From a virus, in IMG/VR virus record IMGVR_UViG_3300042691_027808, positions 1 through 20,149 of that record: 20,149 nt of DNA. One strand, 5' to 3'. Positions 9 to 16,596 of the stretch are shown one piece after another. The notes under the pieces were generated by a model. The model saw only the letters and a list, made by a program, of their open reading frames with translations. It made no database searches and was not told where the DNA came from. The first letter of the stretch is position 1. The number at the start of each line of letters is the position of its first letter. Position numbers and translations under genes: made by a program.

Positions 9-197
9 ATGCAAGATCCAACAAAGACAATCGCTGAAGCGTACACAAGACAAGCACTGTTCGAGCAATATGCTATGAACAATGTTAGTAATTTGGTAGA
101 AGCAATTGAAAAATATGAAGAAAAAAACGATGTTGAATTGTCTGAACAACAGATTAAATACATCGTAGAAAAATTTTTAATCGAACTACACGGATGA
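9..197 (+). CDS. small helical hypothetical protein
   Basis: This 62-residue protein is not one I recognise. It is charged and predicted almost wholly helical by eye, with an acidic and glutamine-rich second half (the stretch around EAIEKYEEKND and SEQQIKYIVEKF) and no Cys, signal peptide or membrane segment. The start is the ATG at 9; only 8 bases precede it, with a weak purine run (ggtaaaag), so a start further left cannot be excluded. Its stop overlaps the next ATG by 4 nt (ATGA), so it is probably translationally coupled to the lysozyme-like gene. It may be a chaperone or small structural accessory of that protein, but this rests on position only. Confidence 0.6.
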   Translation: MQDPTKTIAEAYTRQALFEQYAMNNVSNLVEAIEKYEEKNDVELSEQQIKYIVEKFLIELHG

Positions 198-1600
198 GAT
201 CATTTCGTCAACATATAAGCGGTGGATATGTACCACCATCTGCTGAGGATCGTGCGGAGTTGGCAAGACTCCGCGCTGATCAATTTGAGAGAAAAATCGC
301 CGGAAGCAAGATGTCCGGGTTTGATCGTGGTCAATACACCGAGATCGGTCATGCTGCTACAACTGGCGGAATCGGTAGCAATGCCGATACAGAACTCTGG
401 GTACACCACGACGATAAGATAATGAAAAAGAGATTACCAGAGTGGCGTCCACACGGAGCGCACCATGATGTATTTGGCATGGGCGAATTGAACTATCCAG
501 AAGGCGGTCCTCGCAAACCAGCGGGTAGAATAGACCATGCATTGAAGGCCATTTCCTTGCAATACGATCCAAAGACTCCTTCTCACCATGTTGAGAGGGT
601 TGTTCAACAATTACGGAAAGCACATCCAGATTATGTCATCCGTGATTATGAACAAAACAAGTATGTTCACGAAGGCGTGGCAAAAGATATTGCAAAAGTG
701 CTAGGTACAGCGGCAGTTGCGGGGGCAGTCGCTTTTGGAGCCGGTAAATCCGTCAAGCAACAGTTTCCAAGTAAACCAGAAGCGCCAATAGCAAAAGCAT
801 TTGCTGGATCAAAACCAGTTGAAAAACCAACATCAACACTTAAAGTGCCAGCAGATGTTAAAGCCAAAATGCCTGCACCTCCCAAGGTCAAGGAACCAGA
901 TGGGCATAAACAATTTCACGAAAGATTACAGAAACATTTTGGGGAAGAGTATCCAATTATAATGACTGCGGCGAAGAGAAATGGTATTGCCGAAACAGAT
1001 CATGATAATTTGGCTACATTGTTTGCCATACGCAAGGCGGAAAACGGAAAACCAGGAAAAGAATTTGGTGTGCTTCATCCAAAAGCAAAAGGACAAAAGG
1101 GGGAATCTAGAGAGAAAACTCTGGATAGACAAGCCGGTTGGGCAGCCGCAACAATAATCAGCAAGCGTCGCTCCCATGAAGCATCAAAAGAAGGTGGTGA
1201 CTTTGTTCAATATTTGGGATCAAAATATGCACCGGTTGGCGCAGAAAACGATCCAAGCAACCTTAATAAAAATTGGCACAAAAATGTTTCTGGTTGGCGA
1301 GATGTGTTTCATGGCAAGAAAGCCAGCATAAACGAAGATTCTAAACCCAAGATTTTAACTAGACTTACGAATCAACTACGATCCAAAGGTGTTGAGAATG
1401 CCGCGGGAGTTGCAATAGGCAAACTTCGACAATTTGGCTTAATGCAAAAAGATTCTTTGACGCTCACAGACAAAGGGGCCATTAGAAACAAAATGTCACC
1501 TGGCGCAAGAGCAAAGAGTAGAGCTGCCAGATATAGTGGTGGATCGCCAAAAGATTATACATATGATAGCAAAACAAATAAAGCCACAAAAAAGGACTAA
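194..1600 (+). CDS. modular virion protein with C-terminal lysozyme-like (peptidoglycan hydrolase) domain
   Basis: 468 residues in at least four parts. Residues ~45-150 form an N-terminal domain of unknown function with an IGH...ELWVHHDD pattern and many His. Residues ~162-185 are Ala/Gly-rich and hydrophobic, possibly membrane-associated. Residues ~190-235 are a Pro/Lys linker. Residues ~240-370 resemble phage lysozyme-like/glucosaminidase-like modules: a candidate catalytic Glu in AIRKAENG (E283), then GWAAATI, FVQYLGSKYAPVGAENDP (337-354) and NKNWHKNV (358-365). The family would cleave cell-wall glycan chains. The modular layout and position among virion genes suggest a structural murein hydrolase used at entry rather than a free endolysin, though no separate endolysin is in the window. 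The C-terminal ~90 residues are basic and of unknown role. The start overlaps the previous stop (ATGA). Enzyme class is inferred from motif pattern only. Confidence 0.65.
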   Translation: MRSFRQHISGGYVPPSAEDRAELARLRADQFERKIAGSKMSGFDRGQYTEIGHAATTGGIGSNADTELWVHHDDKIMKKRLPEWRPHGAHHDVFGMGELNYPEGGPRKPAGRIDHALKAISLQYDPKTPSHHVERVVQQLRKAHPDYVIRDYEQNKYVHEGVAKDIAKVLGTAAVAGAVAFGAGKSVKQQFPSKPEAPIAKAFAGSKPVEKPTSTLKVPADVKAKMPAPPKVKEPDGHKQFHERLQKHFGEEYPIIMTAAKRNGIAETDHDNLATLFAIRKAENGKPGKEFGVLHPKAKGQKGESREKTLDRQAGWAAATIISKRRSHEASKEGGDFVQYLGSKYAPVGAENDPSNLNKNWHKNVSGWRDVFHGKKASINEDSKPKILTRLTNQLRSKGVENAAGVAIGKLRQFGLMQKDSLTLTDKGAIRNKMSPGARAKSRAARYSGGSPKDYTYDSKTNKATKKD

Positions 1601-1602
1601 TT

Positions 1603-2541
1603 ATGACATCTGACTCAGATTGGATCAAAGAAGTATCTAAAACTTACCTTGAAGAAGCCAAAAAAACCACAGGCGTCCCTGCTGGTGCAACCGAGGACAA
1701 GTTTGATGCGGCCCGGGAAGAAATAAAAAAGGCAGGACACAAGGCTAAACTTGGTAAAGGTGTTCCTGCGGGCGAAGTAAAAGAAAATTCGCAAGAATGT
1801 GGCGAATGCGTTCAAGAGCAAGCACTTGTTGAATCTGTTAGTTTGTTGACAGAAGAACAACAAGAACTTTTTGTTCTTTCTTTCGTAGACGATCTACTTG
1901 AAAGTCTAACTGTCGAAGAAATAGAAGCACTAACAGAGGAACAACTTGAAGAAGGCTTGATGGCTAAACTCAAGGGTTATGCTGGTGGTGCTCTCGCGGC
2001 TGCAAAGTCTGCTCCACTTTCTCAATTTATTTCTAAAGCAAAACAATATGGTGCAGAGAGAACTGAGCGTCTGGAAAAAAAGGAAGCAGAAACATCACAC
2101 GCAAAGGAAATAGAAAAAGCAAGAGGAGAAGCAAAGGGTGGAGTCCGCAAGGCTACTGATGCCGAACTTCATGCTATAGTTGGTAAACTTGGAAGTGCCA
2201 AGGGAGCAACAAACAAGGCAATACTAGCAAAAGCCCAAGAAACTCTCGGAAAGAGAGCAGAAACGGCTGCTGGTAAGGGATTAGGTGGTTTAGTAGCCAA
2301 AACAAGAGGGTTGCTCGGTAACAAGGCGGCTATGCGTGACAGGGTAACAAAGATGGCAGAGCGTTCAAAGGCTGAAGCCGGTAAAGTAAAAGTTGATGCT
2401 TCAAAGGTTGTTGATCAAGCACGTGGCGGTTACAAGAAGCAAACTATTTCAAAAATACAAGCATTACGCGCCAAGGGTAAAGAGTCTGCGGGTGAAATAA
2501 AGAAACTGCAAAAAACACTTCCTACAAAGAAAAAGAAGTAA
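1603..2541 (+). CDS. acidic-to-basic Lys/Ala/Glu-rich protein, possible capsid-internal or core protein
   Basis: 312 residues, family not recognised. The N-terminus (WIKEVSKTYLEEAKK, residues 7-21) ends in E-A like a capsid-targeting/prohead-protease site. GVPAG occurs twice (24-28, 53-57), and a CGEC pair lies at 66-69. Residues 78-118 are strongly acidic and Leu-rich helix. From about 120 to the end the protein is Lys/Ala/Gly-rich, basic and low-complexity, finishing in KKKKK-like residues, reminiscent of histone-H1-like tails. It starts at ATG 1603, 2 nt after the upstream stop, with AAAGGA at 1591-1596, and is followed directly by a hairpin terminator, so it ends this transcription unit. 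A scaffold, prohead core or DNA-binding internal protein is plausible; none is shown. Confidence 0.6.
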   Translation: MTSDSDWIKEVSKTYLEEAKKTTGVPAGATEDKFDAAREEIKKAGHKAKLGKGVPAGEVKENSQECGECVQEQALVESVSLLTEEQQELFVLSFVDDLLESLTVEEIEALTEEQLEEGLMAKLKGYAGGALAAAKSAPLSQFISKAKQYGAERTERLEKKEAETSHAKEIEKARGEAKGGVRKATDAELHAIVGKLGSAKGATNKAILAKAQETLGKRAETAAGKGLGGLVAKTRGLLGNKAAMRDRVTKMAERSKAEAGKVKVDASKVVDQARGGYKKQTISKIQALRAKGKESAGEIKKLQKTLPTKKKK

Positions 2542-2600: not shown

Positions 2601-3494
2601 ATGGAACGCGCAGAACTATTATCACAAATTAAACAAATAATTGAAAAACAAGGCGCAAAACGCAAACTAATGCAGAAAGTAAAGGCAGACTCTATTGCTA
2701 CTGCAAGTAGTTTAATTAATCTAACGGTGCCTGCACAAAATATGCCATCTATACACGAAGAAGCAATTATAAAACAATATTCTGTACAAGCAGTTGGTCG
2801 TAAAAGAAACACGATGGTAAATGCCATGCAACTGAACGATGCAGAGTTTTTAAATTGGGTACAAGATAGACTTTATAGATTGGCACACGAAAACGAAAGA
2901 GCGGTTGCTGAGTTTAGTATAAAAGACATAACAAGCGGTTTACAACAATGGGAGAACTTATTTTCTGCACAAGACAAAGAATGGGGCAAATACCGCGATT
3001 CTTTTATGAAGTATAAGGATCGTTTTATAAAAGCGGCAACAGTTATTTTAAATACAGGACAGGCTGCTGGTTCATTAAACGATACTCCAAGTCAAGCAGC
3101 ACCAAATAATGTAGATGGTTCTCCTGCTACTCCAACAATGTTGAAACACCAATCATCAGATGGAAGAAGCGAACCACAAGCCCAAGGATCAACAGGTGGT
3201 GGACAACCCGAACAAGAACCACAACAATATGGTCCAAACGAATATTTTCAATACTTTCAACAACTTTTACAAATGGATGATGCATCTTTTGCAGACTTTG
3301 TTCAAGATAAGTTGTTGGAAGGTGAAACCGATCCGTCGAAGATAAATCCAAAATACATCAAGAAGATGTTAGATAAAGACGAAAAAGAAATAGATAAGAT
3401 CTTTAAAAAGTTTACGAAGGAGATACACAAACTGTACAAAGAATATGCAAAAAGATTCTTATCTACTGTTGAGAGTATGACTAGTGAGGATTGA
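2601..3494 (+). CDS. hypothetical virion protein with internal duplicated motif
   Basis: 297 residues from ATG 2601, chosen over upstream TTG 2568 and ATG 2589 because GGAG (2591-2594) sits 6 nt before it and the promoter-like element would overlap the longer reading. No family recognised. Two helical halves are joined by a Pro/Gln/Gly/Ser-rich linker (about 155-210). Each half carries the same short motif, LNDAEFLNWVQDRL at 78-91 and MDDASFADFVQDKL at 225-238, suggesting an internal duplication. The C-terminal ~45 residues are highly charged helix (KKMLDKDEKEIDKIFKKF). The N-terminus is a basic amphipathic helix. The context of structural and nucleic-acid genes suggests a virion component; no enzyme motif is visible. 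Confidence 0.65.
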   Translation: MERAELLSQIKQIIEKQGAKRKLMQKVKADSIATASSLINLTVPAQNMPSIHEEAIIKQYSVQAVGRKRNTMVNAMQLNDAEFLNWVQDRLYRLAHENERAVAEFSIKDITSGLQQWENLFSAQDKEWGKYRDSFMKYKDRFIKAATVILNTGQAAGSLNDTPSQAAPNNVDGSPATPTMLKHQSSDGRSEPQAQGSTGGGQPEQEPQQYGPNEYFQYFQQLLQMDDASFADFVQDKLLEGETDPSKINPKYIKKMLDKDEKEIDKIFKKFTKEIHKLYKEYAKRFLSTVESMTSED

Positions 3495-3499
3495 ACATT

Positions 3500-4021
3500 A
3501 TGAATAAAGATGTACTTTTATTGAATGCGTCTGAAGAAGTTATAAGTGTGATAGATTGGACTAAAGCGGTTAAATTAATGATGGCTGGTAAAGCGATCAA
3601 ACCGTATAATTACGAAGATTATCACGAAATATTAACAAGTAGTGGTGTATTTAAACTACCAACTGCTATAGTTTTAATTGAATATGTAAGAATACCATAC
3701 CGCAAGTGCAAATTGAATAAAAAGAATTTGTTCAATAGAGATCATGGTATGTGTCAATATTGTGCAAAAAAGTTAACAAAAAGCACACTAACAGTTGATC
3801 ACGTTTTCCCAAAGAGTCGTGGCGGCAAAAATACTTGGGACAATATGGTTTCTTGTTGTAGGGCATGCAATGTTAAGAAGAAAAACCGCACTCCAAGCGA
3901 AGCCAACATGAAACTACTCTCTGTTCCTGGGTTGCCTCATAAGGATTTTGTTCTAATTAAGGTATACGACGGAAATCATAATAAGTTATGGGAGAGATGG
4001 ATTAGTATAAATAATAAGTAA
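3500..4021 (+). CDS. HNH endonuclease
   Basis: 173 residues of the common HNH family that begins with VLLLNAS..(V/I)I.W.KAV. Visible elements are zinc-type pairs CQYC (85-88) and CRAC (120-123), the DH of the first HNH element (VDHVFPKSRGG, D100-H101), N115 and N124, and the NRTP end. The fold cuts one or both DNA strands with a metal ion in the H-N-H pocket. Start ATG 3500 is preceded by GAGGA (3486-3490) and restores the usual family N-terminus; the in-frame TTG at 3491 has no spacer. It lies between structural genes, which fits a free-standing homing endonuclease or a packaging-associated nicking enzyme. Its last codons contain a perfect TATAAATA element serving the next gene. Confidence 0.9.
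   Translation: MNKDVLLLNASEEVISVIDWTKAVKLMMAGKAIKPYNYEDYHEILTSSGVFKLPTAIVLIEYVRIPYRKCKLNKKNLFNRDHGMCQYCAKKLTKSTLTVDHVFPKSRGGKNTWDNMVSCCRACNVKKKNRTPSEANMKLLSVPGLPHKDFVLIKVYDGNHNKLWERWISINNK
4006..4013 (+). promoter_or_regulatory. perfect T4-late promoter octamer TATAAATA
   Basis: TATAAATA lies over the last codons of the HNH gene, 27 nt before ATG 4041, with AAGGAG (4026-4031) between. It equals the T4 late (sigma gp55) consensus exactly. It probably drives the small beta-rich protein and the genes after it. Overlap with the end of a coding region is normal in compact phage genomes. Confidence 0.6.
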
Positions 4022-4040: not shown

Positions 4041-4334
4041 ATGAGAAGCGCAGATCCAGCAGCATATGATCAATTTGTTGAAATAACAACAAATACAGCA
4101 GACAATAATAAATTTAGCACAGGATTCAGAGCATTGATGTTAACCCACAGCGCAACGGCCGCTGTAACATTTAATGTACAACAACTTGTAAATGGAACAC
4201 TGGCTACAGCAAAAACCATAACAGTAAATACGGGCGGTACAGCAGTTGCAGGCACTGTAATCTTACCACTATCTGGCGAAACAGTATATGTTACAAGTTT
4301 AACCGCCGGTGCAAAGGTTTATGCACTTATTTGA
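4041..4334 (+). CDS. small Thr/Ala/Val-rich beta-structured protein, probable virion component
   Basis: 97 residues, not assigned to a family. The sequence alternates Thr/Val/Ala with Gly turns (TVNTGGTAVAGTVILPL, VYVTSLTAGAKVYALI), typical of a small beta-sandwich such as a capsid decoration or tail accessory protein. There are no Cys, charged clusters or membrane segments. It has the clearest expression signals of the left half: TATAAATA at 4006-4013 and AAGGAG at 4026-4031, 9 nt before ATG, suggesting high late expression. Its 3' end overlaps the next gene by 14 nt. The structural role is inferred from composition and signals. Confidence 0.65.
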   Translation: MRSADPAAYDQFVEITTNTADNNKFSTGFRALMLTHSATAAVTFNVQQLVNGTLATAKTITVNTGGTAVAGTVILPLSGETVYVTSLTAGAKVYALI

Positions 4335-5640
4335 ATTTACACAATTTTTGACTGAACAAAAAGAGGAAACGGCTGGACCAAACATCCATTTGGAACATGC
4401 CGAAGATGCTCTGTTTGATGAAGGACATGAAGGCGGCAGATCGGCTGCTCATTATATCCATTCACTGGCAAATGGTCTTCGTGGAAAGCATGGTCCGGAC
4501 TTTAAAGTTACAACAAAATATGATGGCGCTCCAGCAGTTATATTTGGAGTACATCCAGTTACAGGTAAATTCTTTGTGGGTACAAAATCTGTATTTGCAA
4601 AGAAACCAAAAATTAATTATTCACTCAAGGACATAGAAAACAATCACGGCGACTCACCCGGTCTTGTAGCAAAACTACAAGCCGCTTTTACACATTTGCG
4701 TAAATTAAATTTGCCACATGGTGAAGTTTATCAGGGCGATATGATGTATACGCCTGATGATTTAAAAATGGAAAATATTGAAGGCAAAGAGCACCTTACT
4801 TTTACACCAAATACTTTAACATACGCAGTGCCACATAATAGTGAAGACGCAAAAAGAATTGCCGCGTCTAAAATGGGCATAATAGTTCATACTGGTTACA
4901 GAAATTTTGGTACAAAAGAAATGTCAACGGAATTTTCACCAGATCTTGGACACATTGAACCACATCAAGATGTTTGGATGAAAGATGCCCAATTAAGCAG
5001 AGGAGATGGTGAAAAACAACTATCTGCTCAAGATCACAAAAAAATAGTAGAACATTTAAAAGCAGCACACAAACATTTGGACGATAGCAAAGATTTCTTA
5101 AATGGTGTAGCGGGACACGGTTCACTGCGTCCATTGATGAAAATGTTTGTAAATGACATGGTTAAGCGTGGAATTGAAAAACCAACAAGACAACATGTTA
5201 TGGATTTTATAACAACAAGACATAATGCCGAAGCAGATAAATTAAAAACACAAGCAGGAAAAGATAGAGTTCATGCGAGAAGAACTGAACTAACCAGTCA
5301 TTTGCTGCAAAACACGCAACACATCGACAATATGCTTGCAGCGCACCACAATATTGCTGCTGCAAAGCATGTATTGATTGGTGGCTTGAAAAAAACAAAA
5401 GGAATTGCAACATATTCCAGAACCCAAAAAGTACACCCAGAGACAAAAGAAATTACAGATCATTTAGAACCAGTTGCACCGGAGGGCTTTGTAATGATTG
5501 ATACTGGTACTGGTAGGGCGTTAAAAGCAGTAAATCGTTCAGAGTTTTCAAGAATGAACTTTGAACGCGGCAAAATGGGTCAAATGAAAAAAGAAAAACA
5601 ACAAAAAACTCCAGAAGGAGAGGAGGAAGAAAATGGCTAA
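4321..5640 (+). CDS. DUF6267-like protein with nucleotidyltransferase/ligase-type motifs
   Basis: 439 residues. The opening (MHLFEFTQFLTEQ, then NIHLEHAEDALFDEG) and the KYDGAPAVIFG segment match, as I recall it, the phage family DUF6267. The motifs also fit the covalent nucleotidyltransferase (DNA/RNA ligase) superfamily in order: motif I KYDG (K66), FFVGTKSVF (84-92), motif III-like GEVYQGDMMY (134-143), motif IV-like EGFVM (388-392) and motif V-like LKAV (K402). Between III and IV lies a ~230-residue His/Lys-rich helical insertion. K66 would take AMP from ATP. Start ATG 4321 fits the family N-terminus better than GTG 4309; AAAGG at 4313-4317 is close. It overlaps the upstream gene by 14 nt and the micro-gene by 8. 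Nick sealing, RNA ligation or capping are all possible; the substrate is unknown. Confidence 0.7.
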   Translation: MHLFEFTQFLTEQKEETAGPNIHLEHAEDALFDEGHEGGRSAAHYIHSLANGLRGKHGPDFKVTTKYDGAPAVIFGVHPVTGKFFVGTKSVFAKKPKINYSLKDIENNHGDSPGLVAKLQAAFTHLRKLNLPHGEVYQGDMMYTPDDLKMENIEGKEHLTFTPNTLTYAVPHNSEDAKRIAASKMGIIVHTGYRNFGTKEMSTEFSPDLGHIEPHQDVWMKDAQLSRGDGEKQLSAQDHKKIVEHLKAAHKHLDDSKDFLNGVAGHGSLRPLMKMFVNDMVKRGIEKPTRQHVMDFITTRHNAEADKLKTQAGKDRVHARRTELTSHLLQNTQHIDNMLAAHHNIAAAKHVLIGGLKKTKGIATYSRTQKVHPETKEITDHLEPVAPEGFVMIDTGTGRALKAVNRSEFSRMNFERGKMGQMKKEKQQKTPEGEEEENG

Positions 5641-5689
5641 AAAAGGATGTGGCTGTGGTGGTCCAAAAACAGGGAATGGTGGTAAATAA
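5633..5689 (+). CDS. 18-residue Cys/Gly/Lys micro-protein
   Basis: A very short ORF, MAKKGCGCGGPKTGNGGK, starts at ATG 5633 and ends with TAA at 5687-5689. It has the best Shine-Dalgarno in the window: AGGAGG at 5621-5626 with a 6-nt spacer. It overlaps the end of the ligase-like gene (different frame), and its TAA shares a base with the next ATG (TAATG), so it links the two genes by coupled translation. The CGCGG core could bind a metal or form a redox pair. It could instead be a leader that merely couples translation, but the strong ribosome site and clean ends argue for real translation. Confidence 0.6.
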   Translation: MAKKGCGCGGPKTGNGGK

Positions 5690-5985
5690 TGTTAAAAGAA
5701 AAACTAATGAACACCTTTAAAGGTATGTTTGGTGGTAACTATAGCAAAGAAAATGGTAAAGTTTTTTGGTCCAAAGACGGTGTAAAAAAATTGGTAACAA
5801 CCAGTTTCTTAAAACACTTTATTGGAAATAAAAAAGATCCATCATCCAACGATGCAAGTATCGTGGTTTCTAAAGTTGTAAGTAAAGCTGTAGGCGCAGA
5901 AGCATCTACAACAAAACCACCAAGTAAAAAGGCAAAGAAAAATGCAAAAGATACATCAAATAATAAAGTATCTGAAGGAAGCTAA
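5689..5985 (+). CDS. small basic hypothetical protein
   Basis: 98 residues, unrecognised. The N-terminal half (LKEKLMNTFKGMFGG, then KVFWSKDGVKKLVTTSFLKHFIG) is amphipathic and aromatic. The C-terminal third is a Lys/Ser/Ala tail (KPPSKKAKKNAK) that looks disordered and nucleic-acid or capsid binding. The ATG is shared with the stop of the 18-residue micro-gene (TAATG), and the 3' end overlaps the following gene by 44 nt in another frame. A minor internal virion protein would fit size and charge. Confidence 0.55.
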   Translation: MLKEKLMNTFKGMFGGNYSKENGKVFWSKDGVKKLVTTSFLKHFIGNKKDPSSNDASIVVSKVVSKAVGAEASTTKPPSKKAKKNAKDTSNNKVSEGS

Positions 5986-7060
5986 ATCCGTAGGATCTGC
6001 TTTTTTAGTTACTGGTGCTTTTGGTCCTTACACAAGAGGACACGAAGAAATGGCTAGAGCAGCAGCAGAACATGCCGCTTCTACAGGTCATACGCATTTT
6101 TATCATGGTATTGGTGCATCTGAATTAAAACCAGATGCTCCTCTGACACATGAACAAAAATCAGAAATTGTTTCTGGTTCACATAAGCATATCGCGGGTA
6201 GTATGTCAAAAGAACACCGGGGTAAACTTGGGTTTGGTGTTATACCAAAAGAACACTCTATAACTCCATTTCATCAAATTGGGCATCTAATAAGCAAGGG
6301 ACATAAAAACATCACCATTGCTGTTGGTTCTGATCAATTGAAAAAAGGTGGATTAAAAGACAGAATACTGCAACACATGGAACGTCATGGTGGTTTTGTT
6401 GGAGCAGACAAACAAGTTCACGATGTTAACATAAACTTTCATCAACTTGGTAAAGAAAGAGTAGAAGGTGAAATACCAAGAGAAAAGTTTTTAAAGCAAT
6501 TGCGCGGTGGAGATTATAGTGGTGTAAAAGGTGGAAAATTGCGTAGTGCCGTTGCAAGTGGCGATGAAGAATTGGCACATGAACTTATGCCACACTCGGT
6601 AAAAGATAAAGCAGGATACTTTAAATTAATACGAGGACAAATGGATGCAGTTCAAAGAGGAATCGAATCCAAACGAGCCGAAAAAGAAGCGAAAAAAGCA
6701 GCCAAGACTAAGGCGAAGCCAAAAACCAAACCTAAAAAGAAGAAACTAAAAGAAGCATTTACACAAATAATGACTTTTATAGAAGCCGCCAAAGATCCTA
6801 CCCGAAAGGAAAGAGATCACAGAATGTATGGATGGGGTAAAGAGAACCCAACACCAAGGCAATTGGCTAACCGCAAAAAGAAGGATAAGAGGACAGTAGC
6901 ACGCAGACAAGCAAATGCTTCCGGTCGTACCCGCAAAGGTGACGAATCTGTTGAATTAGATCACAAAAATGGTAATGCCAATGACAATAGTTCAGATAAT
7001 TTAAGAGTTATTTCTAGAAAAACAAACCGTTCTAGGAATAATAACAAATGGCGTAAATGA
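5942..7060 (+). CDS. cytidylyltransferase-like domain fused to an HNH-type nuclease domain
   Basis: 372 residues with two enzyme modules. Residues ~17-205 look like the nucleotidylyltransferase alpha/beta fold of the NMNAT/cytidylyltransferase class: LVTGAFGPYTRGHEEMA holds a TRGH variant of the HxGH signature (31-34), AVGSDQLKKG follows at 127-136, and YSGVKGGKLRSAV (192-204) resembles the second SxTxxR-type signature. These enzymes join an NTP to a phosphorylated partner, releasing pyrophosphate. Residues ~240-272 are a Lys/Ala linker. FTQIMTFIEAAKD (273-285) looks like an internal copy of the N-terminal tag. Residues ~287-372 are basic and contain an HNH-like core, VELDHKNGNANDNSSDNLR (337-355). 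The N-terminus (IIKYLKEA) is tag-like too. An internal ATG at 6770 could express the HNH part alone. The fusion is clear; substrates are unknown. Confidence 0.75.
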   Translation: MQKIHQIIKYLKEAKSVGSAFLVTGAFGPYTRGHEEMARAAAEHAASTGHTHFYHGIGASELKPDAPLTHEQKSEIVSGSHKHIAGSMSKEHRGKLGFGVIPKEHSITPFHQIGHLISKGHKNITIAVGSDQLKKGGLKDRILQHMERHGGFVGADKQVHDVNINFHQLGKERVEGEIPREKFLKQLRGGDYSGVKGGKLRSAVASGDEELAHELMPHSVKDKAGYFKLIRGQMDAVQRGIESKRAEKEAKKAAKTKAKPKTKPKKKKLKEAFTQIMTFIEAAKDPTRKERDHRMYGWGKENPTPRQLANRKKKDKRTVARRQANASGRTRKGDESVELDHKNGNANDNSSDNLRVISRKTNRSRNNNKWRK

Positions 7061-7066
7061 TAAATA
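7059..7066 (+). promoter_or_regulatory. T4-late-like promoter element GATAAATA
   Basis: GATAAATA overlaps the stop of the NTase-HNH gene and ends 17 nt before ATG 7084, with GGAG (7071-7074) in between. Spacing is nearly the same as for the elements before 2601, 9270 and the - strand gene starting at 18738. Confidence 0.5.
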
Positions 7067-7083
7067 GTACGGAGATCAATCAC

Positions 7084-7407
7084 ATGGATTTTTTTAAATT
7101 ACGTCAAATTATAAAAGAAGCAAGCAAAGATAGTATGCCTTGCAACAAACCCCGTCGTTCGACCAGTGCTGGAAAGAAAATGATGGTTAAGGCGTGCGAA
7201 GGTGGCAAAGAAAAGATTGTACATTTTGGCGCCAAAGGATATGGACATAATTATAGTCCTGCTGCAAGAAAATCATTCCGCGCAAGACATAAGTGTGGTG
7301 AAAAGAAATCAAAACTAGGAGCGCAATATTGGGCATGCCGTAAATTGTGGTCTGGCCCTAAAGGTTCAAAGAAATCGTGCCCACCAGGCAGAAAGTGCAA
7401 GTACTGA
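7084..7407 (+). CDS. small, very basic Cys-containing protein of marine T4-like phage type
   Basis: 107 residues from ATG 7084; the ATG at 7057 overlaps the previous stop and has no ribosome site, whereas GGAG (7071-7074) stands 9 nt before 7084. About a third of the residues are Lys/Arg, with six Cys (20, 38, 71, 85, 99, 105) and His at 47, 55 and 69. Segments such as KKMMVKACEGG, HFGAKGYGHNY, RKSFRARHKCGEKKSK and YWACRKLW resemble a family I recall from marine T4-like phages, without known function. The N-terminus FFKLRQIIKEASKD resembles a capsid-targeting tag. Zinc or disulfide bonding and DNA binding are likely from composition. A 1-nt gap separates it from the next gene. Confidence 0.7.
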   Translation: MDFFKLRQIIKEASKDSMPCNKPRRSTSAGKKMMVKACEGGKEKIVHFGAKGYGHNYSPAARKSFRARHKCGEKKSKLGAQYWACRKLWSGPKGSKKSCPPGRKCKY

Positions 7408-7408
7408 T

Positions 7409-8083
7409 ATGAAATTCAAACAACTCAGAAGATTAATAGAACAATACGAAGTCGTAAATGAAGGAGGTAAAGGAATGATGGTTCCTGGCCTCAACAGTCA
7501 ACAAGCATCGGATGGTAGTGTAAGTCTACACGACATCACCGAACCCGAAATGATTGAAAGAATCAATGCTGGTATTGCAGCATTTGTTTCTAACGTACCG
7601 TCTTCGGGTGTTGTTGATCCTAGAGATCTTTTAGTTCGTCTTCGTGTCGAGTTAAATAAATTTGGTTTTGATTTTAAATATGATGGAAAAACATATCCAC
7701 AAGAAAACATGAGTTTTGCTTTAACTCAATTTGGTGGACGCACTGGTGTAGATGAAAAAGGCAAACAACTAAATGATGATGGTATTACCCACCGTTTGGG
7801 TGGACCGCTTAAATTGGTAATGCAAATGAAGCACCCACCAGAGGTTGGTTTCCATTCAATACAAGCCAAGGTAGAAAAAGGAGCAGGAGCAGCAGAAGAA
7901 CCAAAAGAAGGTGGTTCCGAAGCAGCAGCCACTCTTAAAAAAAAAGTGAATGAAGAAAAAGACGCTTGCTATCATAAGGTAAAGTCAAGATATGATGTAT
8001 GGCCATCTGCTTACGCATCCGGTGCATTGAGCAAGTGTAGAAAAGTGGGAGCAAAGAATTGGGGAAATAAGAGCAAGGATTAA
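7409..8083 (+). CDS. two-domain phage protein with C-terminal ACYHKVKSRY...SKCRK module
   Basis: 224 residues. The N-terminus MKFKQLRRLIEQYEVVNEG is tag-like. Residues ~35-150 form a mixed alpha/beta domain I do not recognise (includes PRDLLVRLRVELNKFGFDF and MSFALTQFGGRTG). Residues ~155-180 are an Ala/Glu/Lys linker. Residues 184-224 form a compact basic module, DACYHKVKSRYDVWPSAY then SGALSKCRKVGAKNWGNKS, with Cys at 187 and 210. I recall this module at the C-termini of several unrelated marine T4-like phage proteins, so it is probably a shared localisation or DNA-binding tag. It follows the preceding gene by 1 nt and shares its basic, Cys- and Trp-containing style, so both are probably made together and may act in the same particle. 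Confidence 0.65.
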   Translation: MKFKQLRRLIEQYEVVNEGGKGMMVPGLNSQQASDGSVSLHDITEPEMIERINAGIAAFVSNVPSSGVVDPRDLLVRLRVELNKFGFDFKYDGKTYPQENMSFALTQFGGRTGVDEKGKQLNDDGITHRLGGPLKLVMQMKHPPEVGFHSIQAKVEKGAGAAEEPKEGGSEAAATLKKKVNEEKDACYHKVKSRYDVWPSAYASGALSKCRKVGAKNWGNKSKD

Positions 8084-8087
8084 CATA

Positions 8088-8483
8088 ATGGAACTTTTAA
8101 TCATGGATGTGTATAAACTGAATGATGACAATTTTTTGATGTATGCGATGAAGAACTACAGAAATCCTCAATGCAAAAACATTGAAGAATTTCATGAAGA
8201 CATGAACAGAATCAAATACTTAAAAAGATTATTCAGAAAATATAAAACATCCGGGTTATTAAGAGAGAGATTGATCTTAAATCACATAATAATATTTACC
8301 AATGTTTTTGGTGTAGAAGCAGCAGCAAGATTGCTTTTTTCAAGAATTGAAGACGATTTACACATATATTTAAAAACTTTTTTGGTATTTTTAAATAGTT
8401 TACCGGAAAATATACCAGAAGTTGATTTGATTGCTATACCGCTCGACAGACGAATTATAACAAAATTAAGAGAAATTAAATGA
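8088..8483 (+). CDS. conserved helical phage protein of unknown function
   Basis: 131 residues, all-helical by eye. The pattern YAMKNYRNPQCKNIEEFHEDMNR, then RIKYLKRLFRKYKTSGLLRERLILNHIIIFTNVFG, then HIYLKTFLVFLNSLPE recalls a short protein conserved among T4-like and jumbo phages whose role is unknown to me; the residues around NPQCKNIEEF are the most family-like. There is no signal peptide; the hydrophobic runs are amphipathic helices rather than membrane spans. Start ATG 8088 has AAGGA at 8075-8079 upstream; ATG 8103 is an alternative. The stop overlaps the next ATG (ATGA). Confidence 0.7.
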   Translation: MELLIMDVYKLNDDNFLMYAMKNYRNPQCKNIEEFHEDMNRIKYLKRLFRKYKTSGLLRERLILNHIIIFTNVFGVEAAARLLFSRIEDDLHIYLKTFLVFLNSLPENIPEVDLIAIPLDRRIITKLREIK

Positions 8484-9280
8484 ATTCACAACCAGTATAT
8501 CTTCTAGAGGATCTTAGAAGGTGGTTCAGAGAAAAATGGACCGCTCAAGATGGTTCTCCATGTGGAGCATACAGGGGTAGAGGAAGAGTTAAGTGTCGTC
8601 CATCTAAAAAAGTATCATCCAAGACTGCAAAGACCTGGGGTGAAATGGACAAAAAAGAAAAAAGAAAAGCAATACGATTGAAGCAAAAGGCTCATCGTAA
8701 AGGACATCAATTCAGTAGACACGATACTGGAAAAACTTGGCGTGGTGGTGGTAAATACGAACCAAAAAAGAATGTAACGGAAGCCGTTGATAAGAAAGAA
8801 ATGAAACAAATTCTATCTTATTTAAAAGGTTCCATCAACAATCCAAATAGATTTTATTATTTGATGTTGATGTCTGGAATGAGTGGAACCAAAGCAAACA
8901 GTTTATTGTTTGACTTAAAAAATCCAATGCTCAGAACAGGTAGTCCAGTTTATCGCAAAAGAATGATGGGTTTACTGAAAAGCATAATTGACGCAATAAC
9001 CAAAGATCAATTGCTATACAATCGCGTGAGATCTATGGCTCTTAGCGGAAATTTATCATTGCACGAAGAAGACGGTGGTGGAGCACCGGCAGGAGGTGAT
9101 GGTGGTGGTATGAGTGTGGGTGGGGGATTTATTGAAGGTATGCCTGATGCTACACCGGCAACACAAACTTCTGGTCCTGTATGGGGTACGGAAATACCGC
9201 AAAAGAAAAAAGAAAGAAAACGCAGGGTTGCAATGATACAGCGTTTAAATAATTTATATAGGAGAAAAGATGCCAACTGA
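8480..9280 (+). CDS. DUF5872-like basic domain fused to a helical domain and Gly-rich tail
   Basis: 266 residues. Residues ~9-75 (DLRRWFREKW, GSPCGAYRGRGRVKCRPSKK, TWGEMDKKEKRKAIRLKQ) match what I recall of the DUF5872 pattern: a short basic domain with two Cys (28, 39) found in viruses and bacteria, function unknown. It is followed by a His/Gly/Lys patch, then NVTEAVDKKEMKQIL, which has the tag-like E-A again, and a helical domain (~105-195) with LMLMSGMSGTKANSLLFDL. A Gly-rich linker (198-218) and a basic end (KKKERKRR, 242-249) complete it. It overlaps the previous stop by 4 nt and the holin start by 11 nt. Likely a nucleic-acid-binding virion protein; only the N-terminal domain assignment is reasonably firm. 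Confidence 0.65.
   Translation: MNSQPVYLLEDLRRWFREKWTAQDGSPCGAYRGRGRVKCRPSKKVSSKTAKTWGEMDKKEKRKAIRLKQKAHRKGHQFSRHDTGKTWRGGGKYEPKKNVTEAVDKKEMKQILSYLKGSINNPNRFYYLMLMSGMSGTKANSLLFDLKNPMLRTGSPVYRKRMMGLLKSIIDAITKDQLLYNRVRSMALSGNLSLHEEDGGGAPAGGDGGGMSVGGGFIEGMPDATPATQTSGPVWGTEIPQKKKERKRRVAMIQRLNNLYRRKDAN
9244..9251 (+). promoter_or_regulatory. weak late-promoter-like element TTTAAATA
   Basis: TTTAAATA lies in the end of the DUF5872-like gene, 18 nt before the holin ATG (9270), the same geometry as the better elements before 2601, 7084 and the - strand gene at 18738. Two bases differ from the T4 consensus and the region is AT-rich, so it could be chance. Confidence 0.3.
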
Positions 9281-9704: not shown

Positions 9705-9970
9705 AATACTTAACGTTTTTAACACTCATTCTTTTTGCCGGTTGCACCAATCCACAGTTGGTTTACATGACAGATAAAAATGGTCAAATTATTCACAGTG
9801 TGCAAAAAGAACCATTTTTCAATAGTCCAGACAAAACATCGGAATGGTTATTCTGGTACACTCCAATATTCTTGTTTGCTTCATGGTTTATCTGGAGAGA
9901 AGCAAAGTCGATATATTACGATTGTAAGAAAGTAAAGAATCCCGAAGAACAAGAAGTTAACAATCCTTGA
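9701..9970 (+). CDS. small lipoprotein with C-terminal membrane segment, spanin-like candidate
   Basis: 89 residues. The N-terminus MKYLTFLTLILFAGC is a lipoprotein signal with lipobox LFAGC (Cys15 would be lipidated after cleavage). About 33 residues follow (NPQLVYMTDKNGQIIH, then PDKTSEW), then a strongly hydrophobic segment, WLFWYTPIFLFASWFIW (49-65), and a charged tail. N-terminal lipid plus C-terminal membrane span is the layout of unimolecular spanins, which fuse inner and outer membranes in Gram-negative lysis, and the gene overlaps the holin by 4 nt. However, the segment between lipid and membrane span is very short for crossing the periplasm, so an inner-membrane lipoprotein that tunes the holin is an alternative. 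Its end overlaps the convergent resolvase gene by 14 nt. Confidence 0.65.
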   Translation: MKYLTFLTLILFAGCTNPQLVYMTDKNGQIIHSVQKEPFFNSPDKTSEWLFWYTPIFLFASWFIWREAKSIYYDCKKVKNPEEQEVNNP

Positions 9971-10511
9971 CTTTTTCATAAAGCATCTTGCAAATATAAT
10001 AAGAATCAACAATATCTGACACCGGACTAGTAATATCTTTCTTGTCCGGTGTTATTATTGATTTGAGAAGCATATTGTTTTCTTCAACAAATGCGTCATA
10101 CATTTTTTCTTTATCCGCGTTTCCTTTTCCTGTTGCGTATTTTTTAACTTCAGTTGGAGGAAGAATAGTAAGCGGTATTCCTCTTTGGTATATTTTGTAT
10201 TTAAGAACGCCGGTGTTTTCAGCAATGTGAAAAACTTTACCTTTTGCACCATACGCATATCCTTCAAGTGCTACAGCAGAGCAACCAACTAAAACTTCCA
10301 TTGCCCAATCTGCGATTGTTTCATATCTTTCGATATCACAATCCCAATCCAGGAATGTTTCTCCTATGATGTTGCTTAAGTAATTGTTAGCGTACTTTTT
10401 GGTGTCTGTTAGGAAGTAAAACGAACACTTGTTGAACGCAAAGGTTCCTGTTCCGTTGAACACACAAATTGCGGGCCCAGTCAATGAATAGTCTATACCA
10501 GCGATTATCAT
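9957..10511 (-). CDS. RuvC-like Holliday-junction resolvase / RNase H-fold nuclease
   Basis: 184 residues of the RuvC/RNase H-like superfamily. Visible acidic positions in order: D7 in IAGIDYSLTGPAI, E83 in AVALEGYAYGAKG, and D166/D169 in SPVSDIVDSYYIC near the C-terminus; a Lys/Gly segment (TGKGNADKEK, 127-136) lies where RuvC has its basic motif. The fold binds two metal ions and cuts branched DNA, here most likely recombination or replication intermediates before packaging, the job endonuclease VII does in T4. Length is close to RuvC (about 170). The ATG at 10511 is 6 nt after the protease stop; no Shine-Dalgarno is visible, but AATAAATA lies 7 nt upstream. The 3' end overlaps the opposite-strand lipoprotein gene. 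Confidence 0.8.
   Translation of the reverse strand: MIIAGIDYSLTGPAICVFNGTGTFAFNKCSFYFLTDTKKYANNYLSNIIGETFLDWDCDIERYETIADWAMEVLVGCSAVALEGYAYGAKGKVFHIAENTGVLKYKIYQRGIPLTILPPTEVKKYATGKGNADKEKMYDAFVEENNMLLKSIITPDKKDITSPVSDIVDSYYICKMLYEKVKDC
10019..10052. repeat. GC-rich inverted repeat inside the resolvase gene at the strand switch
   Basis: ACACCGGAC (10019-10027) and GTCCGGTGT (10044-10052) are perfect 9-bp arms around a 16-nt loop, 49 nt past the last + strand stop (9970) and followed by the AT-rich TATTATTGATTTG. It could terminate + strand transcription arriving from the lysis genes. The long loop and lack of a clean T-run make that uncertain. Confidence 0.4.
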
Positions 10512-10517
10512 ACAACA

Positions 10518-11288
10518 TTATTTATTCTCCTGTATTACGGCGTTTATCCAATCTAAGTAAATTATTACATGAGTGGCAGAATTTTCTATTAAATGGCCTT
10601 GGTATATTGCAAAAGAGCAAAGAATACCGGCAAGTTTGCCACCATCTTCGAACAAAGCGCCACCAGAATCACCAAACCAGACAGTTCCATTTAATGGCAA
10701 AAATTTTATATGTGAAGGATCTTCTAAAATTGTACCATAATAAAAAAATGTTTGAGGTTTGCTGATTTTCTTTTTGCAAAAACTATAACCAACAGTGGTG
10801 AGGGATTCCAGTCTGTTTAAATCCTCTAATGTGGTTAAAAGAGTCGCTGGTGTTTTACTGGATGACGTTTCCAATACAAATAAACCAATGTCATTTAAAG
10901 TACTCTGAGTTTGATAGTCTTTGTGCGGTAAGCATTTCGTAATGCGTATGCGTTCACAGTCATTGGTTTCAAACCAATATGCTTCTCTATCTTCTAAACA
11001 ATGAGCAGCAGTAAGAACCACTCGTGGAGATACGAGGACGCAACTACCAATCAAATCCCCGTTCTCCTTTAATACTTTCCCCACACAACCAAATGGATCT
11101 TGTTGCCCCTCTTCGATGACTGTGAATCCTCGGGTTACGAACTCGGGCAGTTCTTGAATGGGCTGCTCAACCGCTTCGGGTATTGCTTCCTTTGGTTGTG
11201 TGGGGTTGTTTGAAGCGGCAGTAACACCTTTGCAGGCGTTTAACGTCGCAAGGGAAGTTACTAGGATGGTTACTAGTACCCTTGTCAT
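10518..11288 (-). CDS. secreted/lipoprotein trypsin-like serine protease
   Basis: 256 residues from ATG 11288. Catalytic triad of the chymotrypsin (S1) family: His96 in VLTAAHC, Asp133 in NDIGLFVL, Ser208 in GDSGGAL. Cys83 and Cys97 (SCVLVSPRVVLTAAHC) match the conserved disulfide around the catalytic His, implying an oxidising compartment. The N-terminus MTRVLVTILVTSLATLNAC is a signal sequence with a lipobox-like LNAC (Cys19), followed by a Pro/Glu/Gln linker (27-50), so the enzyme is probably exported and perhaps lipid-anchored. The ATG was chosen over an upstream TTG (11315) because it starts the signal peptide. No Shine-Dalgarno is visible; GCATAAATAC lies 7 nt upstream. The substrate is unknown; host surface or competing-phage receptor proteins are possibilities. 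A trypsin-like exported protease is unusual in a phage. Confidence 0.85.
   Translation of the reverse strand: MTRVLVTILVTSLATLNACKGVTAASNNPTQPKEAIPEAVEQPIQELPEFVTRGFTVIEEGQQDPFGCVGKVLKENGDLIGSCVLVSPRVVLTAAHCLEDREAYWFETNDCERIRITKCLPHKDYQTQSTLNDIGLFVLETSSSKTPATLLTTLEDLNRLESLTTVGYSFCKKKISKPQTFFYYGTILEDPSHIKFLPLNGTVWFGDSGGALFEDGGKLAGILCSFAIYQGHLIENSATHVIIYLDWINAVIQENK
10519..10526 (-). promoter_or_regulatory. late-promoter-like AATAAATA close to the resolvase start
   Basis: On the - strand AATAAATA overlaps the protease stop and ends 7 nt before the resolvase ATG. If it acts like a T4 late promoter, transcription would begin within 2-3 nt of the ATG, matching the lack of a ribosome site. AT-rich coding ends produce such strings by chance, so confidence is low. 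Confidence 0.3.
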
Positions 11289-11295
11289 AACAATA

Positions 11296-11305
11296 GTATT
11301 TATGC
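11296..11305 (-). promoter_or_regulatory. late-promoter-like GCATAAATAC before the protease gene
   Basis: GCATAAATAC (- strand) lies 7 nt before ATG 11288 and just after a terminator, where a new transcription unit would be expected to begin. One base differs from TATAAATA within the core octamer. The predicted leader would be only about 3 nt. Confidence 0.45.
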
Positions 11306-11319
11306 CAATTCCCAAATAA

Positions 11320-14609: not shown

Positions 14610-16586
14610 TTAGCCAAAAATATACAAGGTAAATACTCTTCCACTACCCAGTCTATTTGTTAATTTAATTTCTCCGGTTGTGGTATCAACCCAAACGCTA
14701 ACTTTACTTGCTGTTCCCGGATCAGAAGTGCTGCCATTTTGTATGTCTGCACCGGCAGATATTGACGTAATTCCAGAAGAATTAAAAGTAAACATGAAAT
14801 TGGTGGTTTCTGTACCGTCAGAAACAAGTAATCCAAGTTTACCGGAAACAACCGATTGTCCCCTAAATGCAAAGGTATGACTTGCTCCAGAAGCAACAGA
14901 TGCACTTTGCAAATCCAAAATACCACCATTGCTGCTGTTACTATCACCAATTGTATTCAGTCTTGGGATAAAAGAAGTTGCTGAATTTTTTGTCAAATTA
15001 GCACTTAATCCGATATTTGAATTATTAAATGCAGATATATTGGCTTCCAAAACTGTTGGAGAAGCACTCATAGTTGTGTAATGTCTGACGGGTGAACCGG
15101 CGTGTCGATTTCCGTGTATGGACATTATTGTTAAATCGAAACTCGTTCTTCCGTTGTTTCCAATAAACGATCTTTCTATACGCTCCACCATGTTGTCTGT
15201 GATAGTGCAATATAATGGTGCTGTATCTGGAGTTCCGCGACCTGCAATTGTGGCAAAATGGAAACAAGATCCAACACCCACTGCTTTATTTCCCTTGATG
15301 CTGATGAATCCCGGAGTTGTATATGTGTCGTCGGAAACCGTTGCATCTATGTAACGGTAAATTACACCAACAGATGGTGGAACATTGTTAAAGAAATGAT
15401 TGTCACATACGGTTATCGCTTTACTTCTGAAATCAGCATCTCCATCATAAAAACTAATAACCATACCATTTGTCGGAGTAACGTCGCCATTGCTATGGAA
15501 TGGACTCTTTGCTACACCACCCACATCAACTGGATCAAAGTGGAAAACGTTGTTGCTGATTATACCAGAAGTAATTTGACAATTAAATCTAACAGGTGAT
15601 AGATTTTTTGGCAAAGTATTTAAGTAACTCGTATTGTTTTGAATTATTGTTTGATCATTTTGAATTTTTATGTCTCTGCCGCCGCAGTTTACAAAGTGAT
15701 TACCAAACACAGAAACCTGTGTTCTTGGGTAATTTGGTCCAGTTTCTATTCCGGATTCTGGACTAAAATCGGTACTAGTATCAAATCCAAATATTTGTAT
15801 ACCATCACAATCACCATTGTCTGCACTCAAATTTGGTATTTCACTTGTTATGTTTTCAATATAACAATTACTGACGCTGATTGTTCTGCTATGATCGTTT
15901 AAACCAACAGATTGTGATATAGGAGTAATAACTATACCCATTGATCCGCCTTGGTTTCCGGGAACATCCGCTCTTGAAACGTTTTTTACGGTGCATTTAT
16001 CTACTGTTACATTTGACCATTGACCTTGCAAAACCAAACCAGTTGCAATACTGTAAAAAGTAGGACTACCAGAATAATACATGTTCGTAAAGGAACAATT
16101 CGTTACTCTAACCCAAGAAGTTTGTCTTACTTGTTCTCTGAGGAACAAACCAACCACCGATTTGTTATCACCATTAAAACTCAAACCATCAATGTGGACA
16201 TTTTTGCCATTTGTGTCTATAAACATTATGTAAGACAGGTTGTTGCCAAGTCCTTGCGCTGCCAACGACGCGGTTGCATCGCATTTTAATGTTGCATTGT
16301 CACCATATATTTTTATGTTTTGTTGTAGATTGACATAACAACCCATTGTTGATCCAGATGGATTTGTTTTGCTACCAATTCTGTATGTGCCTTGTGGGAA
16401 ATACAAAGATCTGCCATTTGCATTTGTTCCACCAACATATTTTAATGCAGCATCTATGGCTGGAGCATCATCAGTAACACCATCTCCTTTTGCACCAAAG
16501 TCTTTGACAGAAATTGTGTCAAAAAGTTTATCACCGACCGTTCTTGTTACTGAACCATGTTGTGTAATTGGTTGATTAGCGCCCAT
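14610..16586 (-). CDS. tail spike/fibre protein, pectate-lyase (beta-helix) fold, paralogue A
   Basis: 658 residues. After a short lead (GSVTRTVGDKLFDT, 11-24) comes the phage Pectate_lyase_3 signature ISVKDFGAKGDGVTDD (25-40), then repeated Asn/Gly/Ile rungs of a right-handed beta-helix (GNHFVNCGGRDIKI, IIQNNTSYLN, GIISNNVFHFD). Such proteins form trimeric spikes that bind or degrade host surface polysaccharide. The last ~130 residues (HTFAFRGQSVVSG to FTLYIFG) are probably a beta-rich trimerisation or receptor domain. It is clearly paralogous to the next gene upstream on this strand, 10 nt away, and has AAAGGA before its ATG. Catalytic residues cannot be assigned by eye; binding without cleavage is possible. 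Confidence 0.85.
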   Translation of the reverse strand: MGANQPITQHGSVTRTVGDKLFDTISVKDFGAKGDGVTDDAPAIDAALKYVGGTNANGRSLYFPQGTYRIGSKTNPSGSTMGCYVNLQQNIKIYGDNATLKCDATASLAAQGLGNNLSYIMFIDTNGKNVHIDGLSFNGDNKSVVGLFLREQVRQTSWVRVTNCSFTNMYYSGSPTFYSIATGLVLQGQWSNVTVDKCTVKNVSRADVPGNQGGSMGIVITPISQSVGLNDHSRTISVSNCYIENITSEIPNLSADNGDCDGIQIFGFDTSTDFSPESGIETGPNYPRTQVSVFGNHFVNCGGRDIKIQNDQTIIQNNTSYLNTLPKNLSPVRFNCQITSGIISNNVFHFDPVDVGGVAKSPFHSNGDVTPTNGMVISFYDGDADFRSKAITVCDNHFFNNVPPSVGVIYRYIDATVSDDTYTTPGFISIKGNKAVGVGSCFHFATIAGRGTPDTAPLYCTITDNMVERIERSFIGNNGRTSFDLTIMSIHGNRHAGSPVRHYTTMSASPTVLEANISAFNNSNIGLSANLTKNSATSFIPRLNTIGDSNSSNGGILDLQSASVASGASHTFAFRGQSVVSGKLGLLVSDGTETTNFMFTFNSSGITSISAGADIQNGSTSDPGTASKVSVWVDTTTGEIKLTNRLGSGRVFTLYIFG

Positions 16587-16596
16587 TGTTTTTCCT

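Follow-up and report, generated by a model that had tools for sequence, protein, structure and literature searches.

Probable T4-type capsid-targeting sequences on a cluster of enzyme genes in a bacteriophage genome fragment

The internal proteins that bacteriophage T4 packages into its head are diverse and have only an N-terminal capsid-targeting sequence (CTS) in common (PMC3012670); three of them inhibit type IV restriction enzymes (PMC12373910). Within the CTS, residues 4 and 7 have been assigned a part in targeting and residues 8 and 10 one in processing (PMC9026906), and MKTYQEFIAEA, which a preliminary description of the DNA analyzed here had given as the type of tag on T4 internal proteins, was confirmed for IPII and IPIII in the T4 record. 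We analyzed the entire virus record IMGVR_UViG_3300042691_027808 (hereafter the window), a fragment of 20,149 bases from a virus of bacteria, in which several proteins begin with short amphipathic segments resembling the CTS. These segments are probably T4-type capsid-targeting sequences by which enzymes are packaged into the head and later ejected with the DNA. Packaging through a T4-like tag, as originally proposed, is supported by motif statistics, the gain and loss of tags, the virion proteomes of relatives and the protease of a sister phage, but the tags are unequal among the proteins first listed. In relatives of the window, the same gene run adjoins T4-type replication genes (DNA polymerase, UvsX, gp41 and gp61, named by similarity to annotated phages).

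Tagged proteins of the window and the tag in related phages

Tagging most likely applies to three open reading frames (orfs) of the window, orf4321, orf5942 and orf7084:

4321 to 5640, plus strand: DUF6267/phrog_455 protein of 439 residues with the ligase-like motifs KxDG, EGxV and KxV (Pfam E=1e-99, PHROGs E=8e-84)
4321 to 4356, plus strand: tag of the canonical T4 type, MHLFEFTQFLTE, with cleavage predicted after E12; it matches the T4 internal-protein motif, as do 38 of 79 homologs
5942 to 7060, plus strand: fused adenylyl/cytidylyltransferase domain and C-terminal HNH domain, 372 residues (phrog_395 E=7e-10; weak HNH_3 match)
5942 to 5980, plus strand: relaxed tag MQKIHQIIKYLKE with cleavage predicted after E13; in homologs as low as about 36% identity it keeps its place while its letters change
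6758 to 6793, plus strand: internal tag FTQIMTFIEAAK, residues 273-284, between the two domains and a possible inter-domain cleavage site
7084 to 7407, plus strand: basic Cys-rich protein, DUF5754-like, phrog_7595, matching also phrog_220 "minor head protein and DNA pilot" (Pfam and PHROGs matches)
7084 to 7119, plus strand: relaxed tag MDFFKLRQIIKE with cleavage predicted after E12; distant homologs start MLSFNQFLSEA or MLSFNQFISEA

The residues important in T4 translate into the motif [FY]xx[FY][IL]xE, of which a relaxed form admits other hydrophobic residues. We relied on this T4-derived motif because a "strict" motif had been composed after the N-termini of phage S-CREM2 were seen; the T4-derived motif was also applied after that point. 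A tag profile built from DUF6267 proteins and cytidylyltransferases proved over-tight, ranking the S-CREM2 proteins only moderately well, and the T4-derived motif was used instead.

Every tag segment quoted in the preliminary description was found in frame at its position: FEFTQFLTE (orf4321), IHQIIKYLKEA (orf5942), FFKLRQIIKEA (orf7084), FKQLRRLIEQ (orf7409) and WIKEVSKTYLEEA (orf1603). Their similarity of type, however, is graded. The segment of orf4321 fits the T4 motif exactly, agreeing with IPII and IPIII at each residue that the T4 work found important, and those of orf5942 and orf7084 fit the relaxed form, whereas orf7409 (LxxLIE) and orf1603 (SKTYLEE) carry variants only. The run is also less than strictly consecutive: the untagged orf5689 lies between 4321 and 5942, and orf8088 and orf8480, within the stated range up to 9280, carry no tag either; upstream of 4321, orf3491 (HNH) and orf4041 have no tag. 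In the whole window, three N-termini match the broad motif against 0.31 expected (p 0.004).

DUF6267 occurs in 466 phage records, nearly all of them T4-like cyanobacterial phages, with Pelagibacter, Methylophilales and Stenotrophomonas phages also represented. Among 80 metagenomic loci chosen by DUF6267 (932 called genes), 53 N-termini match the T4 motif against 0.98 expected from internal positions; the sequences of these loci are related, so that p-values overstate their independence. The motif is present in 38 of 79 DUF6267 proteins and 7 of 29 cytidylyltransferases and in none of 86 neighboring gp41, UvsX, 2OG oxygenase, phrog_407, NrdA and MazG proteins. Beyond the called DUF6267 and cytidylyltransferase sets there are 14 more tagged proteins, including a P-loop protein resembling zeta/polynucleotide kinases, an NMNAT-like enzyme, a large cytidyltransferase fusion and HAD-type phosphatases (weak matches, FDIDDTLF motif). 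In a tagged adenylate kinase (locus L109, 1261-1863; PF00406, E=3e-41), an extension of about 17 residues with the tag MKRFKSYIKEE precedes the normal start. The relaxed motif also matches UvsX (MSDFLKNIIKE, 4 of 23), which is plainly no tag and was judged a false positive.

Alignment of the N-termini across relatives, a check proposed at the outset, showed that the tags persist in near relatives while the linkers that follow them vary. Homologs at about 24-40% identity keep the tag in new letters (MIYKPFTKFLKEE and MFYSPFKRFIVEE in DUF6267, MKSFFNLIKEQ in the nucleotidyltransferase), and in two loci, L011 and L014, the Cys-rich protein, which is 79% identical, starts MLSFNQFISEA or MLSFNQFLSEA. 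The DUF6267 proteins of phages Melnitz, DLP_6 and C48C1 start INFSKYITED, MKFTQFLAES and LDFKNFITEQ; in several sister contigs, DUF6267 retains FDFSQF, and an insertion precedes the acidic residue. Cytidylyltransferase homologs occur both tagged (MKTYQRFMTERKGDTAVFTFGRFNPP) and untagged (MKTAVFVFGRFNPP). This gain and loss on homologous enzymes, together with the presence of one kind of tag on unrelated enzymes, is the behavior of a movable address.

The proteomes of purified cyanophage particles point in the same direction. A cytidylyltransferase was detected by mass spectrometry in virions of S-CREM2, S-SZBM1, S-SCSM1 and S-SM1 (PMC10665884, PMC9146016, PMC9602691, PMC3037559), and all four enzymes are tagged: MKKFSAFLNEA in S-SM1, MKNFSSFLTEA in S-CREM2, and MKSFLQFLKEA and MRFRQFIIEA in S-SCSM1 and S-SZBM1. 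S-CREM2 has 219 genes, and 52 of its proteins were detected in virions (PMC10665884). The T4 motif is found there on an S-adenosylmethionine (SAM) lyase (MKDFDSFLEE, PF23780), a kinase (MKRFDAFLTEE) and the cytidylyltransferase, and all three were among the virion proteins; when the structural block is left aside, the motif marks 3 of 13 detected proteins and none of 134 undetected ones (p=5.5e-4). The tag is present on two genes of S-SZBM1, one being the detected cytidylyltransferase, and on two of S-SCSM1, one being the detected NMNAT. When the three proteome lists, those of S-CREM2, S-SZBM1 and S-SCSM1, are pooled, detection reaches 7 of 10 for proteins with a relaxed tag and 127 of 719 for the background (p=4e-4); the three tagged proteins that were missed have 55, 105 and 106 residues. 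The untagged DUF6267 protein of S-SZBM1 was not detected in the virion. In S-CRM01, the annotated kinase (N-terminus MISFDQFLSEKK) and the cytidylyltransferase belong to one run of tagged genes, and the detection of a kinase in S-CRM01 virions is mentioned in PMC10665884. Since purified virions of related viruses contain related tagged enzymes, it is probable that the present phages bring a small set of enzymes along with their DNA.

As a separate observation, two virion-detected proteins encoded beside the cytidylyltransferase, SSZBM1_139 (L067 8989-10362, 457 residues) and SSCSM1_90 (L164 3559-4893, 444 residues), have no recognizable tag; either their annotated starts are wrong or they use another route into the particle.

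A prohead protease gene, anticipated elsewhere in the genome, is absent, as are head genes, from the 20-kb window but was found, as a peptidase S77, in the sister contig G023 (94.8 kb), which is 96-99% identical to another sister contig, G001, over about 22 kb and 81-85% identical to the window in their overlap. The first fragments of this lineage yielded neither S77 nor gp23 because they lacked the head module, and the longer contig settled the question. Its S77 gene (45718-46158) lies between probable gp20, gp22 and gp23 genes, named by gene order, size and N-terminal resemblance, and near probable gp17-gp19. Peptidase S77 was also present in all nine complete relatives examined (4/4 and 5/5). 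The same kind of site appears in the N-terminus of the G023 protease itself (MKLITETRQQDIQYVSEAA) and in those of its relatives (VKYITEA, VKVLTEE).

The tagged enzymes and their proposed route

Across 49 DUF6267 sequences, K66, D68 and G69 (motif I, KxDG), E388, G389 and V391 (motif IV, EGxV) and K402 (the motif V Lys) are invariant. These motifs suggest that DUF6267 is a ligase-type nucleotidyltransferase. The label "ligase-like" given earlier to orf4321 follows from its motifs; the structure search yielded no confident match, with nothing in PDB below E=0.3 and T4 DNA ligase and mRNA capping enzymes among the weak matches. Pfam, PHROGs, PADLOC and a PDB sequence search yielded no function for DUF6267 beyond the family name. 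In the orf4321 model (predicted local distance difference test, pLDDT, 87), residues 1-18 score below 50; residues 7-14 form a short helix.

The naming of orf5942 as a nucleotidyltransferase-HNH protein agrees with its phrog_395 match and its weak HNH_3 match. Foldseek aligned its body with phosphopantetheine adenylyltransferase (probability 1.0, E=1.3e-3), matching also NMNAT and ATP sulfurylase, and its TxGH motif is TRGH, in which T31 and H34 are invariant in 11 sequences. The further copy of the tag reported inside this protein is indeed present. In 12 of 12 aligned relatives, a variable Lys-rich linker ends in a hydrophobic segment with an acidic residue, directly followed by D(P/A)TR, examples being FTQIMTFIEAAK, LQRIASFMEAA, FLKIMAFLESA and LLLEKEK. 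Residues 6-15 and 259-286 of the model, the places of both tags, have pLDDT below 50; the tag regions in the orf4321 and orf5942 models are of low confidence and detached from the folded body. The simplest reading is that orf5942 is a fusion of two formerly separately tagged proteins that are still split inside the prohead, as a second tag between domains suggests for the precursor; alternatively, the internal segment is a helix that opens the HNH domain.

By analogy with T4, the short amphipathic segment would dock the enzyme on the scaffold core during prohead assembly, and the S77 prohead protease (gp21) would cut behind the Glu and release the enzyme inside the head. The fused orf5942 would perhaps also be cut in two at its internal tag. 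DNA would then be packaged around the freed enzyme, which would exit with it at infection. The activities of the cargo (ligase-like, nucleotidyl transfer, nuclease, SAM lyase and kinase) fit a role early in infection, in which nucleic acid or nucleotide pools may be protected, repaired or modified.

We more tentatively entertain a broader proposal, which at present we would not favor: that the CTS is a general enzyme address in T4-like aquatic phages, whose virions deliver a ready-made set of nucleic-acid and nucleotide enzymes (ligase-like protein, adenylyl/cytidylyltransferase, HNH nuclease, P-loop kinase, HAD-type phosphatase, adenylate kinase and SAM lyase), and that in this lineage two enzymes are made as one precursor with a second tag inside it, which the prohead protease cuts apart within the capsid.

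Other genes of the window

Orfs 7409, 1603 and 2601 are weaker candidates for tagged cargo. Two of the starts below, those of orf2601 (AELLSQIKQIIEK, similar) and orf194 (degenerate), had been missed in the preliminary description.

7409 to 8083, plus strand: variant-tag protein MKFKQLRRLIE with a C-terminal phrog_727 module (PHROGs E=2e-22); the tag is kept in near relatives
1603 to 2541, plus strand: protein of 312 residues with the variant N-terminus DWIKEVSKTYLEEA; like starts occur on a 66-residue protein of G001 and on S-SCSM1_92
2601 to 3494, plus strand: variant-start protein MERAELLSQIKQIIE; distant homologs start MKSFFNLSEKLNEA or MKSFFDLQSTLNEA
194 to 1600, plus strand: protein with the degenerate tag MRSFRQHISGG (no Glu); its relative in L023 starts MKSFGQFSES
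3500 to 4021, plus strand: untagged HNH endonuclease that breaks the run (Pfam HNH_5 E=1e-18)
Window 1621-1659; G001 23664-23864; L164 6162-7724; L156 11422-11973; L068 7704-10313: sites of a second kind of N-terminus

For orfs 194, 1603 and 2601, no function emerged from Pfam, PHROGs or PADLOC. More distant homologs of orf7409 have the untagged start MKKNIKENYS. The C-terminal module of orf7409 (CYHKVKSRYDVWPSAYASGALSKCRKVGAKNWGNK, window 7931-8083) matches phrog_727, 38880 and 3477, families that otherwise differ in length, and by these matches it looks like a movable C-terminal module. The orf194 protein has 468 residues here and 641 in the sister contig L003; its residues 1-384 (86%) and 372-468 (81%) match the two ends of the L003 protein, so that about 170 internal residues are missing.

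The second kind of N-terminus (SKTYLEEA, TKTYVQES, SKVYMEKV), at times preceded by an SRW..W motif, occurs on unrelated proteins. The orf1603-type start is found on the 66-residue G001 protein (MTDSRWLNELTKTYVQES) and on the virion protein S-SCSM1_92 (LNDISKVYMEKV), and the carriers also include the virion protein S-CREM2 gp12; this N-terminus may be another head-targeting signal. In gp12 (OR473000; L068 7704-10313, minus strand), the displaced tag-like segment LRFASFMAEA lies 18 residues inside the annotated start. The protein is annotated as Cas9-like but has no Pfam match, and the annotation looks doubtful.

Elsewhere in the window, two neighboring paralogous tail-spike-like proteins of 658 and 713 residues (14610-18738, minus strand) adjoin a collagen-like tail fiber protein (18768-20117). 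A trypsin-like serine protease with a lipoprotein-like N-terminus (10518-11315, minus strand; phrog_9683) has a resolvase-like gene (9957-10511) on one side and a small membrane-type protein on the other.

Alternative readings and comparison with known systems

Several points weigh against packaging of these enzymes by the tag. Cleavage after Glu is carried over from T4 and is thus presumed for these phages; orfs 7409, 1603 and 2601 fail the T4 motif; many cyanophage DUF6267 proteins are untagged, and in HTVC008M no N-terminus fits the strict motif. The virion proteomes cover only phages without a tagged DUF6267. A small tagged protein of 105-106 residues encoded near the terminase genes (MKSFKSFLSES in S-SZBM1, 122311-122628; MKTFKQFMSES in S-SCSM1, 44215-44535) is unreported in the virions of both phages. 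Finally, the S-CREM2 and S-SCSM1 proteome papers themselves caution that abundant proteins may be carried over.

A signal peptide or membrane anchor was set aside on inspection, as the segments are short, amphipathic and charged. An unlikely but better-surviving alternative is that the tagged proteins are primarily components of the prohead core (scaffold fillers, size-determining or DNA-organizing proteins), packaged by the tag but acting in assembly and forming no injected kit. In T4, the core components gp67, gp68 and gp22 undergo packaging and cleavage yet are no effectors (PMC9026906), a head/DNA-pilot family is among the matches of orf7084, and small proteins encoded beside gp21 start alike (MRTFKELREAK in C48C1). 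However, the tagged proteins of known family are mostly enzymes (SAM lyase, kinase, adenylate kinase, nucleotidyltransferase), and since the same enzymes are untagged in relatives, they are no obligatory core parts.

Less probable still is that the segment is a helix that docks on a different partner, such as the replisome, the membrane or another phage protein, and that the virion matches are co-purified abundant enzymes. The tagged genes adjoin replication genes, the two proteome papers themselves raise carry-over, and S-SCSM1 RegA, also marked as a virion protein, looks like an instance of it. The motif, however, is missing from all 86 neighboring replication-region proteins, virion detection follows the tag in S-CREM2, and the motif is an experimentally defined T4 packaging signal. 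Mere coincidence among common amphipathic N-terminal helices, which the UvsX matches and the failure of orfs 7409, 1603 and 2601 to fit the formal motif might recall, is scarcely credible: it is contradicted for the canonical tags by their excess over expectation, conservation to 24% identity and association with virion proteomes, and is possible for orfs 7409 and 2601.

We therefore return to T4-type packaging of enzymes as the probable explanation. Its mechanism is known from T4, but its use for enzyme cargo across Kyanoviridae-type phages has apparently gone unrecognized so far; in the open-licence literature, we found no paper that considers capsid targeting in these phages, nor one that mentions DUF6267. 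Cyanophage virion papers repeatedly list a cytidylyltransferase/NMNAT, kinase or SAM hydrolase, and in the passages available (PMC10665884, PMC9146016, PMC9602691, PMC3037559) the route of these enzymes into the virion is unexplained and the choice between cargo and contaminant is left open. An N-terminal address matching the T4 CTS offers a mechanism, as well as a sequence-only prediction of DNA-delivered proteins in abundant T4-like aquatic phages, and gives DUF6267, a family without an assigned function, a likely place of action.

Among described systems, the closest are the CTSs of T4 IPI, IPII and IPIII (Mullaney and Black 1996, via PMC9026906), which share with the present segments an N-terminal length of about 10 residues, aromatic or hydrophobic residues at E-6 and E-3, Ile or Leu at E-2, an S77 prohead protease in the genome and a diversity of proteins with the tag alone in common. 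Unlike in T4, most of the cargo here belongs to known enzyme families, the phages are of the Kyanoviridae type, the DUF6267 tag is lost in some relatives, and a second tag lies inside orf5942. Alt, an ADP-ribosyltransferase that T4 packages (PMC9026906), resembles what we propose in being a head-carried enzyme whose short propeptide is cut by gp21 before ejection, but the enzymes differ, and a whole cluster of tagged genes stands here against one. The giant phage SPN3US (PMC5694885, PMC7411985) likewise packages much protein in the head and removes propeptides with a gp21-like protease during head maturation, but it lies outside the T4 group. The virion enzymes of S-CREM2, S-SZBM1, S-SCSM1 and S-SM1 are like those of the window in including a homologous cytidylyltransferase/NMNAT and, in S-CREM2, also a kinase and SAM lyase, all of them tagged.

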